Of a stretch of 22,978 nt of DNA, positions 1,869 through 21,705 are shown piece by piece. The number at the start of each line of letters is the position of its first letter. Position 1 is the stretch's first letter. Made by a program: the position numbers and the translations under genes. Under the pieces are notes generated by a model. The model did no database searches and was not told where the DNA came from. It worked only from the letters and a program-made list of their open reading frames with translations. The stretch spans positions 1 to 22,978 of the IMG/VR virus record IMGVR_UViG_3300020419_000736. One strand, 5' to 3'. The DNA comes from a virus.

Positions 1869-2125
1869 GTAACAGGGGGTGGGATGACTATATCATCAGT
1901 TGTGATGATAGAAAATTTATAACCATAATTTTTACAACTTGTTTTAACCTCATCTTCTTCCATGAATCTGACGTTTAACTTACGTGGGTAGTCAGCGTCC
2001 TTCAACATACTATAATAACGCACTGCGTCGTCTTTGTCAACAAAGATTTGGACAACCCTATCTACAGTATTGTCATCACGGACAGCATACACTCCTCCAG
2101 TCTTCTGGTCTGTTAATACAAACAT
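1865..2125 (-). CDS. DUF3110-like small protein between gp47 and gp46
   Basis: 86 aa. The sequence has an N-terminal strand (MFVLTDQKTGGVYAV), then DRVVQIFVDKDDAVRYYSML-KDADYP, an acidic stretch, a Cys-containing turn (SCKNYGYKF) and an IPPP tail. From memory this follows the pattern of DUF3110, a small cyanobacterial family (FVLLFN...DRxVVLMFExEDDATRYAxxLExQDFP...C...GY). The resemblance was not checked by search. Function is unknown. It lies in the recombination operon, joined by TAATG to gp47 upstream and ATGA to the 26-aa peptide downstream. A host-family protein fixed in this slot would support a cyanobacterial host. Confidence 0.8.
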   Translation of the reverse strand: MFVLTDQKTGGVYAVRDDNTVDRVVQIFVDKDDAVRYYSMLKDADYPRKLNVRFMEEDEVKTSCKNYGYKFSIITTDDIVIPPPVT

Positions 2126-3156
2126 TATACTTCTTGTGCCTCCAAATATAGAGATTTTAAAATACCAAAAATTTCATGTCCATTATCAAACTCGGTTACA
2201 CAACTCTCTAATATGGTAAGTGTATCCTCAACTTCAACATCAATATCTTCATCTAAATCATAACTCATGTCCTCAATAATCTTGAGGTCTGCGAGGTCTG
2301 CTTTATGTAAACGTCTTACAGTTTTGTCGAATGCAACTTGGTCTGTCTTGTCTTCAACAATGAGTTTTACATATGTGCCTTTGACACTATCTATTTCCTC
2401 GTCAGTAATTCCCACTCCATCCTTATAGAATAACTTACTGAAAGTATTATAAGGATTCTTAATGAATTCTAAATTGGCATCAGTAGTATTTAGAATATGA
2501 AACCCTCTTTCATGACCATAGTCATTCCAGTATAATTGGTAGGGGTTACCCAAGTATTGTATTCGGTCTCTTCTACTACGCATGTGGTAGTGACCACTAC
2601 AAGTCAGTTTAAATTTCTTAAATATGTCTGGACTATCACCATGCTCCATAGTATATCCAGGTACAGGAGAGAAACCATTTAACTCAAGGTGACCCATGCA
2701 GTATTGTGCTTTAGATTTACTAATCATATCTAAAGTTTCTTCTCTATTCTCGTCACATATCCATGGCACTAGCATCATTTTCTTACCACCAATAGTCATT
2801 TCTGTAGGGTTACTGACTACGTTGATGTTTTGATATTGTGTAAGTAACAAATCTGGTGATGATACTTTTAAAGTATTCTTATAATATATGTCATGATTAC
2901 CAACGAGACAGGTCATACGAATGCCTCTGTCTGCTACTGGTTTAAACCACATATCATGTGTATAATCAAGAGAGTTGAAGTTTACATATTTACGTCTATC
3001 AAATGTGTCGCCAAGATTTATTATCTCAGTGATACCATGCTCATCAATATAAGGTAAGACTATATTTTCGTAGAATAATCTATATCTTTCTAGGTAATAT
3101 TGATTGTCATTGCGGACACCGAAGTGTTGGTCTGTGATTAATAATACCTTACTCAT
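2125..3156 (-). CDS. 47: gp47-like recombination endonuclease subunit (Mre11/SbcD type)
   Basis: 343 aa; T4 gp47 is about 339 aa. It is a calcineurin-like metallophosphoesterase forming the nuclease subunit that pairs with gp46. Metal-binding motifs appear in order: DQH at 9-11, GDTFDRR starting at 49, GNHD at 86-89, a CMGHLE histidine and then SGHYH. The C-terminal third is acidic and probably contacts gp46, as in Mre11-Rad50. The start overlaps the methyltransferase stop as ATGA and its stop overlaps the next gene as TAATG, so it is translated as part of one operon. All nuclease motifs are intact. Confidence 0.96.
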   Translation of the reverse strand: MSKVLLITDQHFGVRNDNQYYLERYRLFYENIVLPYIDEHGITEIINLGDTFDRRKYVNFNSLDYTHDMWFKPVADRGIRMTCLVGNHDIYYKNTLKVSSPDLLLTQYQNINVVSNPTEMTIGGKKMMLVPWICDENREETLDMISKSKAQYCMGHLELNGFSPVPGYTMEHGDSPDIFKKFKLTCSGHYHMRSRRDRIQYLGNPYQLYWNDYGHERGFHILNTTDANLEFIKNPYNTFSKLFYKDGVGITDEEIDSVKGTYVKLIVEDKTDQVAFDKTVRRLHKADLADLKIIEDMSYDLDEDIDVEVEDTLTILESCVTEFDNGHEIFGILKSLYLEAQEV

Positions 3157-3941
3157 ACAAAAACACTTGCAAGTGGATTTACTTTCTTTAGTCTTTCTTC
3201 TGCCATTCTAACATACTCTTCATGCAGTTCGCAACCTACCCATCTACGGTCTAGATTCTTAGCAGAGACAGCAGTAGTGCCACTGCCCATAAATGGGTCT
3301 AATACTAGGTCATACTTAAAAGAATAGTATTTAATAATTCTGTCACTTAGTGCTGTAGGGTATGGTGCTAAGTGTTTTGATTTTGTTTCTGGTGGAAACT
3401 GCCATACATTAGTCCTTTCATATCCATCTTCTACTAATGAATCGTTTACTACATGGTCAGAGTATGAGCGGACAATTTTGTCTATCAAACCATCCATAGG
3501 TTTCTGAAATACAAATATAGTTTCAGTAACAATATTAGGTTTGTATGCTACAGGTTTCCTGTGTTGAAAGAAGTTACCGTTTCTATTAATAGAAGCACCT
3601 TCTTGTTTCATCCATACAATGTCATCGATATATTTCCAACCCATTCCTTTCATGATAGTAAAAAAGTCGAATGTGATAGGCAGTCTACTACTCTCATGTG
3701 CCCTAGACTCTCTAGGTTTAATCACAGGAGATAGATTTACACAACACATTCTACCTTTTTCAGTTACACGATACACTTCTTTGAATGTAACGTATAGAAA
3801 AGAAAGGTATTCTTCATAGGTAGGCCATGTAGAATACGCTTTTGCATTATAATATGGAGGAGAGGTGCAAGTAAGATGCACACTCTCATCACCGAGAATT
3901 TTCATGCGCTCTCGGCAGTCACCTAATAAAATTGTATTCAT
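3153..3941 (-). CDS. DNA methyltransferase, N4/N6 amino type
   Basis: 262 aa, Pfam N6_N4_Mtase type. The catalytic motif IV is TSPPY at residues 26-30, and the SAM-binding motif I is DPFMGSGTT at 215-223, followed by RRWVGCELHEEYVRMAEERL. Motif IV before motif I is the beta-class order. SPPY is commoner in N4-cytosine than in N6-adenine enzymes, so m4C is a reasonable guess; the target site cannot be read. It is coupled by TAATG to gp55 upstream and ATGA to gp47 downstream, and no restriction partner is seen. The likely role is protection of phage DNA or marking of replicating DNA. Complete, with no sign of decay. Confidence 0.93.
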   Translation of the reverse strand: MNTILLGDCRERMKILGDESVHLTCTSPPYYNAKAYSTWPTYEEYLSFLYVTFKEVYRVTEKGRMCCVNLSPVIKPRESRAHESSRLPITFDFFTIMKGMGWKYIDDIVWMKQEGASINRNGNFFQHRKPVAYKPNIVTETIFVFQKPMDGLIDKIVRSYSDHVVNDSLVEDGYERTNVWQFPPETKSKHLAPYPTALSDRIIKYYSFKYDLVLDPFMGSGTTAVSAKNLDRRWVGCELHEEYVRMAEERLKKVNPLASVFV

Positions 3942-4417
3942 TAATTACGCATGTTTGTTTCGATTCTACTCTTAATACTATTCATATTAGAAGAATCGTC
4001 TTTAGTATCGGAATGGAATACTTGCTCGTAACCATTCTTTTCAATAAGTTTATCTCTTATGTCCATCTGTCTTTTTTCTTTAGCAATCCTACGAAGAAAT
4101 GCAAAGTAAACTATTTGTGTAAAATAGGCAAAAGGATTTTTGGATTTGGTTGGGTCAAAGTTATCGATATATTGGACGCAATTTTCAACACCGTCAGATA
4201 CCATGTCTTCTTTAAACATATAGTTTATAAAGTTAGGGCGATAGGACAGGTGAGTTGCTATCTTTAAAAAACATTCGCCAAGATAATGAGGAATGCGTGG
4301 TTTAGTTTTGTCTAATAGACGAGCTTCTTCTATAGACTGGCGGTATTCGATAATCTTTGCCAGAAATAATTTGTTATCTACATAATGGGCTTTTCTTTTT
4401 GCGGGCATTTTACGCAT
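3941..4417 (-). CDS. 55: gp55-like late-transcription sigma factor
   Basis: 158 aa from this ATG; T4 gp55 is 185 aa. In T4, gp55 binds core RNA polymerase and recognises TATAAATA late promoters. The motif ECFLKIATHLSYRPNF, then DMVSDGVENCVQYIDNFDP and NPFAYFTQIVYFAFLRRIAK, is a region-2-like sigma segment typical of T4-like gp55. The frame continues upstream to a GTG at 4438, but a perfect sigma70 promoter would start transcription near 4434, downstream of that GTG. I therefore chose the ATG at 4417; an in-frame ATG at 4408 is also possible. Neither has a clear Shine-Dalgarno. Late promoter boxes for it to act on are present elsewhere in the window. Confidence 0.9.
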   Translation of the reverse strand: MRKMPAKRKAHYVDNKLFLAKIIEYRQSIEEARLLDKTKPRIPHYLGECFLKIATHLSYRPNFINYMFKEDMVSDGVENCVQYIDNFDPTKSKNPFAYFTQIVYFAFLRRIAKEKRQMDIRDKLIEKNGYEQVFHSDTKDDSSNMNSIKSRIETNMRN

Positions 4418-4440
4418 ACAGTTTTTTGTATCGCTCACTC

Positions 4441-4469
4441 ATTATAAGTGACGACTGGATTTGTGTCAA
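4441..4469 (-). promoter_or_regulatory. Perfect sigma70-type promoter for gp55
   Basis: On the minus strand TTGACA (4469-4464), exactly 17 bases of spacer (4463-4447) and TATAAT (4446-4441) form a consensus host promoter. The predicted start is near 4434, about 17 bases before the gp55 ATG at 4417. This suggests early or middle expression by unmodified host polymerase of the operon gp55-methyltransferase-gp47-gp46. Confidence 0.85.
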
Positions 4470-4477
4470 GCTTGACA
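4464..4477. repeat. 14-bp perfect palindrome overlapping the gp55 -35 box
   Basis: TGTCAAGCTTGACA is its own reverse complement. Each arm ends in TTGACA, so it supplies a -35 box on both strands. It could be a dimeric repressor or activator site; no candidate regulator is visible in the window. Confidence 0.7.
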
Positions 4478-4500
4478 GGTTACAGAATGTGGTGTACACT
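4472..4500 (+). promoter_or_regulatory. Possible divergent promoter (antisense direction)
   Basis: On the plus strand TTGACA (4472-4477) is followed after exactly 17 bases by TACACT (4495-4500, 4 of 6 matches to TATAAT). A transcript would start near 4507 and run antisense into the 141-aa gene, with no convincing plus-strand gene ahead. The weaker -10 makes this less certain than the gp55 promoter. Confidence 0.35.
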
Positions 4501-4515
4501 AACCGTGTAGCGGTT
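4501..4515. other. Small hairpin downstream of the 141-aa gene
   Basis: AACCG-TGTAG-CGGTT is a perfect 5-bp stem with a 5-base loop, 11 bases past the stop of the 141-aa gene. No T-tract follows on either strand, so it is not a standard intrinsic terminator. It could attenuate or process the upstream mRNA. Confidence 0.35.
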
Positions 4516-4526
4516 CAGAAACGATA

Positions 4527-4952
4527 TTATATATTCTTCTTCCATTGGTCTTCAAGTCTCTTACGAATCTCAGAAACTTTTCCGACCAGACCCATATTTT
4601 TATTTGCTTTTACTTCCCAGTTTGAATCATCTTCAACACCATTTTCTTTTCTCAACCATAATTTATATGTCTGCTCAGCAAGTAAAGACATAGGTGCTAT
4701 TGAAATAATATCTGCTTCTTGAAGAATAAAAAACTCTTCGTCACTCCACATCATCCATTTAACCAAACCTATAGCAAGACCTACTTGACCTTGATGGTTG
4801 ACTGGTGCTTCTCTAGGAGTAGCAGGGTCTTGGACAAAAATTAGCGACTGACCTTTTTCTTGAGTTGCAATCATTACACCCATAACCTCATCGCCAGATG
4901 ATAGTTTGGCAACTCCGTAGAATTCGTGGTCGTGTCTTATGTAAGTAATCAT
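4527..4952 (-). CDS. Conserved-context hypothetical protein between uvsW and gp55
   Basis: 141 aa. The N-terminal half (YGVAKLSSGDEVMGVMIA, then LIFVQDPATPREAP) looks like a small beta-barrel, loosely Sm/Lsm-like. It is followed by WMMWSDEEFFILQEADIISIAPM, and the C-terminal third is charged and helical, ending in Lys residues. I do not recognise a named family, and the Sm-like impression is weak. Its start overlaps the uvsW stop as ATGA, so it is the last gene of the uvsY-uvsW transcript before the gp55 promoter region. A regulatory or nucleic-acid-binding role is inference only. Confidence 0.85.
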   Translation of the reverse strand: MITYIRHDHEFYGVAKLSSGDEVMGVMIATQEKGQSLIFVQDPATPREAPVNHQGQVGLAIGLVKWMMWSDEEFFILQEADIISIAPMSLLAEQTYKLWLRKENGVEDDSNWEVKANKNMGLVGKVSEIRKRLEDQWKKNI

Positions 4953-6409
4953 TTCTTAAAGGATACTTTAGTGACTTCATAATCAAATTTCTCTTCGTCG
5001 TATATTTTCATTCTTTCAATAAGATGACGAAAAGTATAGTTGTAGGATTGACCCCTTGAGCAGTCGTCTGCTATGTCATACAACATTGCTTGCGCTTTGT
5101 TGTCCCCCTTTCTCAAAACTCGTCCTATAGACTGTAAGTTTCTTACTCTAGATTTACTGGGTGATGCGAAAATAACATTATGTAGGTTACGGATATTTAT
5201 ACCTGTAGAAAACGTGCCATAAGATGCAATGATAATTGCGTTGGTTTCCTGCTCGCAAATCTTTCTTGCTTCTTCACGTGCTACAGCATCTACACCGCCA
5301 TGTATAAAGAAGACCTTTGTGCCTTCCTGTACTTTACTATTTAGCATTTCCCATAGGGGCTCACCATGCTTTTCGACGTAGTTAAAGAGTATTAAAGTAT
5401 TGCCTGATACATCTATTGCTAGATTACATATAAAATTGTTACGTTTAGAGTGGGTAATCAGGTAATCTATCTCTTGATGGTATGAATCAAAGGGCACATG
5501 ACCATGCTCTAGCATGCATATCTTCACTTTTAATGGTGTGAGTTGTCCCTTTTTCATCAGGTCTGATGTAGTTGTAACCTTATCACATCTACCAAAGAGA
5601 CCTTCTAGTATTAACTGATGACACTGCATACCGTCTAGTGTCCCTGTTAATCCCACGCGATATTTTACATCATGACACTTGGCAAGTATACCAGTCAGTG
5701 ATTTTGCTTTGTATAAGTGTGCTTCATCTCCTATTACAACATCAAACCTTTCAAAGAAATTCTTTTTCTCTTTGTATATACTCTGCCATGTAGATATAAC
5801 AACTGGTTTCTCTGTATATTTCTCTCTACCTTGCATAATCTCATGGACATATGCATTTGCATTCCATCCATAGTCTTTAAAGTCTTGTTTTAATTGTGAT
5901 ACCAATGATGTGGTAGGCACAATGATAAGTACATTTCTCTTCGCTGCTCTATGCCATCTTACTAATCCGTAGATGATGAGGGATTTTCCTGACCCTGTTG
6001 GGGATAGTAAAAGTTTGCGACGTTGTTTAATAGCTTGGAATATTGCTTTGAGTTGGTAATCTCTTGCCTTGAAAGGTAACCGTAGATGTTTAACGAAAGT
6101 CGCAATCCCCTCAGGTGTGACATAATTTTCTTCCTCGTTTGGGAGACCATAAAACTGTGAGTCTTTAAGGAAAAACTCGTAACCCTTTTCCTCTAGGTAG
6201 TCTGCTAGGTAATCATAGAGACCAACATATATCTCACCTGTACCTGGTGAGTATAATCTTATCTTTCCATCCCAAAATTTCCTCCTATACTGAGGCATGT
6301 ATTTTGCACCAGGGACTTCAAACTGAAAGTATTCACTTAACTCTTTATGTAAGTGTTGCTCCCCTTCAATTTTTAGATAAACCTCATTCTTTTTTGAAAT
6401 GGTTATCAT
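4949..6409 (-). CDS. uvsW: UvsW-like SF2 DNA/RNA helicase
   Basis: 486 aa; T4 UvsW is about 500 aa. In T4 this enzyme unwinds R-loops and branched DNA, shutting down origin-primed replication and promoting fork regression and recombination-dependent replication. Walker A SPTGSGKS is at 136-143, the DEAH box at 228-231, motif III GLTGT at 253-257, and motif VI QSIGRVLRKG lies near the C-terminus. The N-terminal about 110 residues (SEYFQFEVPGAKYMPQ, FWDGKIRLY) match the substrate-binding region of UvsW. It is joined by ATGA to uvsY upstream and to the 141-aa gene downstream. All helicase motifs are intact. Confidence 0.96.
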   Translation of the reverse strand: MITISKKNEVYLKIEGEQHLHKELSEYFQFEVPGAKYMPQYRRKFWDGKIRLYSPGTGEIYVGLYDYLADYLEEKGYEFFLKDSQFYGLPNEEENYVTPEGIATFVKHLRLPFKARDYQLKAIFQAIKQRRKLLLSPTGSGKSLIIYGLVRWHRAAKRNVLIIVPTTSLVSQLKQDFKDYGWNANAYVHEIMQGREKYTEKPVVISTWQSIYKEKKNFFERFDVVIGDEAHLYKAKSLTGILAKCHDVKYRVGLTGTLDGMQCHQLILEGLFGRCDKVTTTSDLMKKGQLTPLKVKICMLEHGHVPFDSYHQEIDYLITHSKRNNFICNLAIDVSGNTLILFNYVEKHGEPLWEMLNSKVQEGTKVFFIHGGVDAVAREEARKICEQETNAIIIASYGTFSTGINIRNLHNVIFASPSKSRVRNLQSIGRVLRKGDNKAQAMLYDIADDCSRGQSYNYTFRHLIERMKIYDEEKFDYEVTKVSFKK

Positions 6410-21030: not shown

Positions 21031-21705
21031 CTAGGGTTTATCAAATAGGACGTTACTTATATATTTATCTGCCCACTCTTCACTAAACCACGCACTGAGC
21101 ACTGCTTTAGTTTTCTTATTCTTCATCTGTGATGTAGAATACCAACACTGGTCATCTAATCTTAGCATAGTGCCAACCCAGTCATCAGAGTGTTTTGCAT
21201 TCATGACGTTTTTATTGTATATGTTTAGATACTCGAGAACTACCTGATAGAATTTTGTCTGCTCATCTTCTGTTTTTAGTCTTGCAAACTTACAGTATGG
21301 TGAGAATATCTCACCCCATTCGGGTAATTGACGATTATCTTTAAATTGATATAACTTACTAATAGGTGCTATGCTATCACTCCAGTCAACTCCTTCCACA
21401 TATGATATATCTACTATGGCAGCAGTAACCCCTGCAGGGGTTTGTATTATATCTGCACCAAATATAGGTAGGTAGTATGATGGGTCTGGCCAAAAGACAC
21501 AGTGGACAATTTGTATTTTATCTGTCTCTGCTGTTTCTAAATGTATCCTACGCAAACCTCTACACTTCCACATTTCATTTTTAATAACAACCTTCTCGTG
21601 TGTTATTAAGTCATGCAGAGTAGTTATTTGCTCTAACTCTGGGAAGTCTGCAATACTATATCTAATTAGATTAGCAATGTCATCACGTATTTTTGGATAA
21701 TGCAT
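21031..21705 (-). CDS. pcyA: Phycocyanobilin:ferredoxin oxidoreductase (PcyA)
   Basis: 224 aa, slightly shorter than cyanobacterial PcyA (about 240-250 aa). It reduces biliverdin IX-alpha to phycocyanobilin using four electrons from ferredoxin. The sequence follows PcyA rather than PebS or PebA: CRGLRRIHLETAE, QIVHCVFWPDPSYYLPIFGA, AGVTAAIVDIS, LPEWGEIFSPYCKF and the end WADKYISNVLFD. Residues equivalent to Synechocystis E76, H88 and D105 are E57, H68 and D85; the H-D spacing (17) is identical and the E-H spacing is one residue shorter. No heme oxygenase gene is in the window, so biliverdin must come from elsewhere. It overlaps a small membrane-protein gene upstream and abuts gp17 downstream. 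Confidence 0.95.
   Translation of the reverse strand: MHYPKIRDDIANLIRYSIADFPELEQITTLHDLITHEKVVIKNEMWKCRGLRRIHLETAETDKIQIVHCVFWPDPSYYLPIFGADIIQTPAGVTAAIVDISYVEGVDWSDSIAPISKLYQFKDNRQLPEWGEIFSPYCKFARLKTEDEQTKFYQVVLEYLNIYNKNVMNAKHSDDWVGTMLRLDDQCWYSTSQMKNKKTKAVLSAWFSEEWADKYISNVLFDKP

Follow-up and report, generated by a model that had tools for sequence, protein, structure and literature searches.

The window, by which we mean the whole stretch of DNA analysed (22,978 bases, GC 38.7%), is part of the genome of a marine T4-like phage, in which uvsY, uvsW, a 141-aa gene, gp55, an N6/N4 DNA methylase gene, gp47, a DUF3110 gene and gp46 all lie on the minus strand. Among cultured phages, those closest in this region belong to the marine cyanophages of the Kyanoviridae, with P-TIM40 at the top of the matches (gp55 identity 72%). 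The following features are found around the start of gp55.

3941..4417, minus strand: gp55, late-transcription sigma factor (PHROG 234, E 5.7e-67), start at ATG4417 or ATG4408
4441..4469, minus strand: putative sigma70-type promoter of gp55, TTGACA 4469-4464, 17-bp spacer, TATAAT 4446-4441, score 12/12
4464..4477, no strand assigned: 14-bp palindrome TGTCAAGCTTGACA, containing the two -35 boxes, 2 bp apart
4472..4500, plus strand: putative divergent antisense sigma70-type promoter, TTGACA 4472-4477, 17-bp spacer, TACACT 4495-4500, score 10/12
4501..4515, plus strand: 15-bp start-site dyad AACCGTGTAGCGGTT, directly after TACACT, candidate operator of the antisense promoter
4527..4952, minus strand: 141-aa gene for an Sm-like domain protein (Pfam PF16243, E 3.8e-19, above the cut-off; PHROG 471)
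4949..6409, minus strand: uvsW helicase gene (PHROG 16, E 2.2e-118)

The match of gp55 to Pfam Sigma70_r2 was slightly under the cut-off. Relatives of the 141-aa gene occurred solely in records labelled marine cyanophage or 'marine virus' and carry the label 'methylamine utilization', which looks misleading, the Pfam match being Sm_like instead; comparison of the protein with the PDB by sequence gave no match. The methylase gene (3153-3941, minus strand; PF01555, E 4e-44) lies between gp55 and gp47, where no DNA methylase is annotated in P-TIM40, S-H35, ACG-2014a and Syn9.

A perfect TTGACA-17-TATAAT on the minus strand before gp55 had been noticed in a previous sequence-only reading of this DNA, and it is present as described. 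It is the sole TTGACA-N15-19-TATAAT in the window; such a match occurred in 4 of 100 dinucleotide shuffles, and the exact 17-bp spacing appeared on average 0.013 times per shuffled window. Transcription is predicted to start near G4434. The GTG4438 that opens the reading frame is upstream of this point, so translation of gp55 from this promoter would begin at ATG4417 or ATG4408.

To assess conservation, the window was combined with 89 loci collected by gp55 protein alone, and removal of upstream regions at least 80% alike left 37 non-redundant loci; these share ancestry, so their counts are not independent events. A gp55 promoter scoring at least 10/12 was found in 34 of the 37, including two (L024 and L055) in which the top-scoring match is possibly not the true gp55 promoter, versus 6.7% of random stretches. 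The earlier proposal that such a promoter explains how the late sigma factor is made before late promoters can work is in agreement with this result, and a sigma70-type promoter independent of gp55 may be regarded as a general feature of these loci.

The plus-strand TTGACA-17-TACACT is also located where it had been reported, and the starts expected from the two promoters, near 4434 on the minus strand and near G4507 on the plus strand, are those given before. The plus promoter faces the 3' end of the Sm-like gene, which lies some 11 bp further on, with uvsW beyond. Taken by itself, this match could be due to chance, as a mere consequence of the minus -35 box lying in a palindrome, since it scores 10/12 in the window and the number of such matches there equals the shuffled expectation. 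However, the antisense TTGACA-17-TAnnnT, with exact TTGACA and exact 17-bp spacer demanded, was found in 28 of the 37 non-redundant gp55 loci and only in about 4% of random 200-nt stretches. Its -10 element varies among relatives (TATAAT, TATACT, TAGAAT, TACACT), and its spacer carries a mean information of 0.45 bits versus 2.0 at the fixed positions. When one mismatch was permitted in the -35 box, the promoter was found in 41 loci of a larger set of 50, some members of which had been fetched by pattern, and TTGACA was perfect in all 41; by comparison, the gp55 -35 box is perfect in only about half of the cases listed for this set. The exact spacing, the intact hexamers and the dyad are kept across lineages with unrelated spacers, and a chance match, refuted by this conservation and by the dyad sites described below, is highly improbable. 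The idea of a divergent promoter antisense to the 141-aa gene and uvsW is upheld to this extent, and the identity of both elements as promoters is strongly supported by the comparison of sequences.

The antisense promoter was absent at 9 of the 37 gp55 loci, the P-TIM40-like clade among them, and is therefore not essential. On the gp55 tree, its presence takes two changes, most simply two losses.

The 14-bp palindrome at 4464-4477 is indeed made of both -35 elements. Palindromes of this length are unremarkable alone (4 observed in the window, 1.8 expected), but the back-to-back arrangement TGTCAA-0..4-TTGACA is unusual, being observed once versus 0.017 expected. The window holds overlapping divergent promoter elements in a pseudo-symmetrical sequence. 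It had been suggested that a factor bound to the palindrome would control both directions at once. The perfect 14 bp of TGTCAAGCTTGACA are shared by the window and its three closest relatives (L001-L003), as would be expected of an operator, but the palindrome is perfect in only 4 of the 37 non-redundant loci. Elsewhere, the two -35 boxes slide relative to each other. Their offset differs by lineage (-10, -1 and +7 to +21 bp), while the spacing within each promoter remains constant. At +8, as in the window, the boxes are 2 bp apart; at -1, they have bases in common and read TTGTCA for gp55 and its complement for the antisense promoter; at -10, they cross, and in other lineages they are further apart. 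Because the promoters keep their geometry and only their mutual offset changes, the palindrome is best read as arising incidentally where the two -35 boxes meet. Conservation among relatives, proposed before as a check, holds for both promoters (34/37 and 28/37) and fails for the palindrome, whose role as the operator is thereby largely refuted and was rejected as quite unlikely. Joint control of both directions is plausible by another route, namely through exclusion of one RNA polymerase by the other. The offsets cluster near -10, -1 and +8 bp, i.e., in steps of about 9 bp, when L058, L061, L065 and L084 are compared with the window, L004 and L033 and with L075 and L080; these steps may mean that new gp55 -35 boxes arose repeatedly next to a fixed antisense one.

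The dyad AACCGTGTAGCGGTT was not mentioned in the sequence-only reading and proved to be the most informative part of the locus. The consensus of its family is AACnnTGTnAGGGTT, with the pattern AAC(N)9GTT. In 27 of the 28 loci with the antisense promoter, it is situated 0-1 nt past the antisense -10 element and overlaps the expected start. IMG/VR was scanned for the dyad combined with TATANT, the -35 box being left out of the pattern, and this yielded 80 distinct stretches, 43 of them non-redundant. A perfect TTGACA was present at exactly 17 bp in all 43 non-redundant sites (0.18 in shuffles) and at no other spacing. Loci obtained by pattern scanning (L091 and above) are biased to the pattern and were excluded from the count of 28 in 37. 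The dyad plus TATAAT was also considered as an extra promoter toward gp55 and rejected: the element that never varies beside it is the TTGACA 17 bp away on the opposite strand, and where a lineage has TAGAAT or TACACT instead, this hexamer fits a -10 element only in the antisense reading. Because many cyanophages have kept the outward promoter together with a dyad at its start point, a regulatory antisense promoter is the probable reading, as opposed to a chance palindrome, and the dyad at the plus start is a better candidate operator than the palindrome.

The same unit occurs beyond gp55. Among 119 matches in a scan for it, 63 were upstream of gp55 and 56 elsewhere; when 68 distinct units were considered, 54 were antisense, either ahead of gp55 or where a large gene ends, and 12 pointed into genes. 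The large gene, of about 1,030 aa and ending LIADLRAIALAT, carries the antisense unit at its 3' end in many IMG/VR contigs (L211-L321, e.g., L227:3263-3286) and is probably structural. In several of these contigs, the start codon of the next gene overlaps the -35 box of the unit. The genes entered by the unit in IMG/VR include those of a 2OG-Fe(II)-oxygenase-like protein and a CpeT-like protein, both named by sequence resemblance.

In cultured phages, a strict long pattern of the unit gave no match, because the gap between the -10 element and the dyad is either 0 or 1 nt, and the pattern was then relaxed. The antisense copy with its dyad was found before gp55 in Syn9, Syn33, S-RIM2, S-RIM8, S-RIM44, S-H35, ACG-2014a and ACG-2014d, and P-HM1 has the antisense promoter with an altered dyad. 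Sense copies are located before cpeT (Syn33), before CP12 (ACG-2014a) and in a small-gene cluster near gp88 (Syn9, S-RIM8, Syn33, S-RIM2 and ACG-2014a). A blastn search with the intergenic stretch of the window also led to the small-gene cluster, in S-RIM50 and S-RIM8 (81-83%). The unit was absent from the whole genome of P-TIM40 with either of two patterns.

Summarizing these data, we lean, somewhat beyond an even balance, towards a pair of overlapping divergent promoters in which the outward one, under regulation at the dyad, acts as a competitor of the gp55 promoter and helps to set the timing of gp55. The inward promoter would provide gp55 mRNA by means of unmodified host RNA polymerase, while the outward promoter (TTGACA-N17-TAnnnT plus the start-site dyad) would transcribe antisense over the Sm-like gene and uvsW. 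In 26 of 28 relatives, a distance of 54-86 bp separates the two starts, and the -35 boxes abut, have bases in common or cross each other. The expected polymerase footprints therefore overlap, and one RNA polymerase would be expected to exclude the other at the paired promoters. A candidate factor at the dyad would regulate the outward promoter, which would in this way compete with the gp55 promoter and oppose read-through from uvsW; the net outcome may concern the timing of gp55, the genes upstream of it, or both. It is from these arrangements of sequence that we infer promoter activity, polymerase exclusion, a factor at the dyad and an effect on timing. Competition between RNA polymerases at divergent promoters was measured in Escherichia coli (PMC12825309), which favours this reading, but its appearance there only if one direction is strongly active counts against it. 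Another point against it is that the closeness of the two promoters could also be caused by a very short intergenic gap.

The outward promoter may instead have been selected because of what it produces: a long antisense RNA would pair with the mRNA of the Sm-like gene and uvsW and lower or time their expression, while an effect on gp55 would not be under selection. No intrinsic terminator was found on the plus strand between 4400 and 7600, so antisense transcription would be able to reach through both genes, the first of which has its 3' end so near to the promoter and codes for an Sm-like domain. An antisense RNA, CfrI, is known from cyanophage S-PM2 (PMC2984593), and the second antisense unit, at the 3' end of the large gene, fits this explanation as well. 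However, Rfam covariance models gave no match at the gathering threshold on either strand between 3000 and 7000, and an RNA product alone leaves the constant overlap with the gp55 promoter unexplained. We consider this explanation rather doubtful, though worthy of attention.

It was also considered that the outward promoter primes phage DNA replication by an R-loop, as in T4 oriF(uvsY), with UvsW later clearing the R-loop. The origins oriF and oriG of T4 consist of a promoter and a downstream unwinding element, and their R-loops are unwound by UvsW (PMC3016281); here, too, a promoter stands near uvsY and uvsW, without a coding gene in its direction. In contrast to oriF(uvsY), it is placed between the Sm-like gene and gp55 and aimed at uvsW, and no A+T-rich unwinding stretch follows it: the A+T content of the 100 bp downstream is no higher than that of the surroundings (mean difference -0.001, 27 loci). 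Moreover, other copies of the unit drive ordinary genes. The replication-origin reading is weakened by these observations and appears quite improbable.

Competition between the paired promoters, the reading we favour, has its nearest counterpart in the bidirectional sigma70 promoters of Warman et al. (PMC12825309), with which it has in common divergent transcription from a pseudo-symmetrical stretch and RNA polymerase exclusion, both predicted for the cyanophage locus. In contrast to those promoters, the symmetry here is produced by the -35 boxes of two distinct promoters, whose offset differs from lineage to lineage, and a dyad is present on one side only. The RNA CfrI of S-PM2, of about 225 nt and antisense to psbA and a homing endonuclease gene (PMC2984593, PMC5931967), is similar in that antisense transcription, here predicted, takes place in a T4-like cyanophage; the present antisense promoter differs from it in its position at uvsW/gp55, in the lack of a visible terminator and in its conservation across many genera. 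A literature search joining cyanophage, antisense RNA and uvsW found nothing in the collection of papers searched.

Promoter motifs conserved in T4-like cyanophages have been met before. Doron et al. 2016 reportedly described an early regulatory element common to Syn9 and P-TIM40, as well as host-like promoters of middle genes. The present promoters resemble those elements in being conserved motifs and in their sigma70-like character, which is a property of middle genes there. P-TIM40 lacks the dyad unit throughout its genome, which makes identity of this unit with the early element of Syn9 and P-TIM40 improbable.

Cyanophages are devoid of MotA and AsiA, and the order of early, middle and late transcription in T4-like cyanophages was described as unsettled (PMC2984593). 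Against this background, we put forward, as a tentative and somewhat speculative possibility, a distinct class of T4-like cyanophage promoters that would combine the sigma70 consensus with the dyad AACnnTGTnAGGGTT and be read by a phage or host regulator, with one conserved antisense copy overlapping the gp55 promoter and acting as a polymerase-exclusion switch that times the late sigma factor without MotA/AsiA. A conserved promoter class with a start-site dyad offers a concrete cis element for seeking a binding protein, and a conserved antisense promoter overlapping that of gp55 provides a switch that can be tested, at the very gene by which late transcription is opened.

Two further observations concern other parts of the window. 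TTGACA-17-TATTAT (11/12; 2012-2040, minus strand), without a dyad, is situated inside the DUF3110 gene, upstream of gp46. An auxiliary metabolic gene of the ferredoxin oxidoreductase type (21031-21705, minus strand; PHROG 7278, E 1.2e-85) adjoins the gene of the terminase large subunit.
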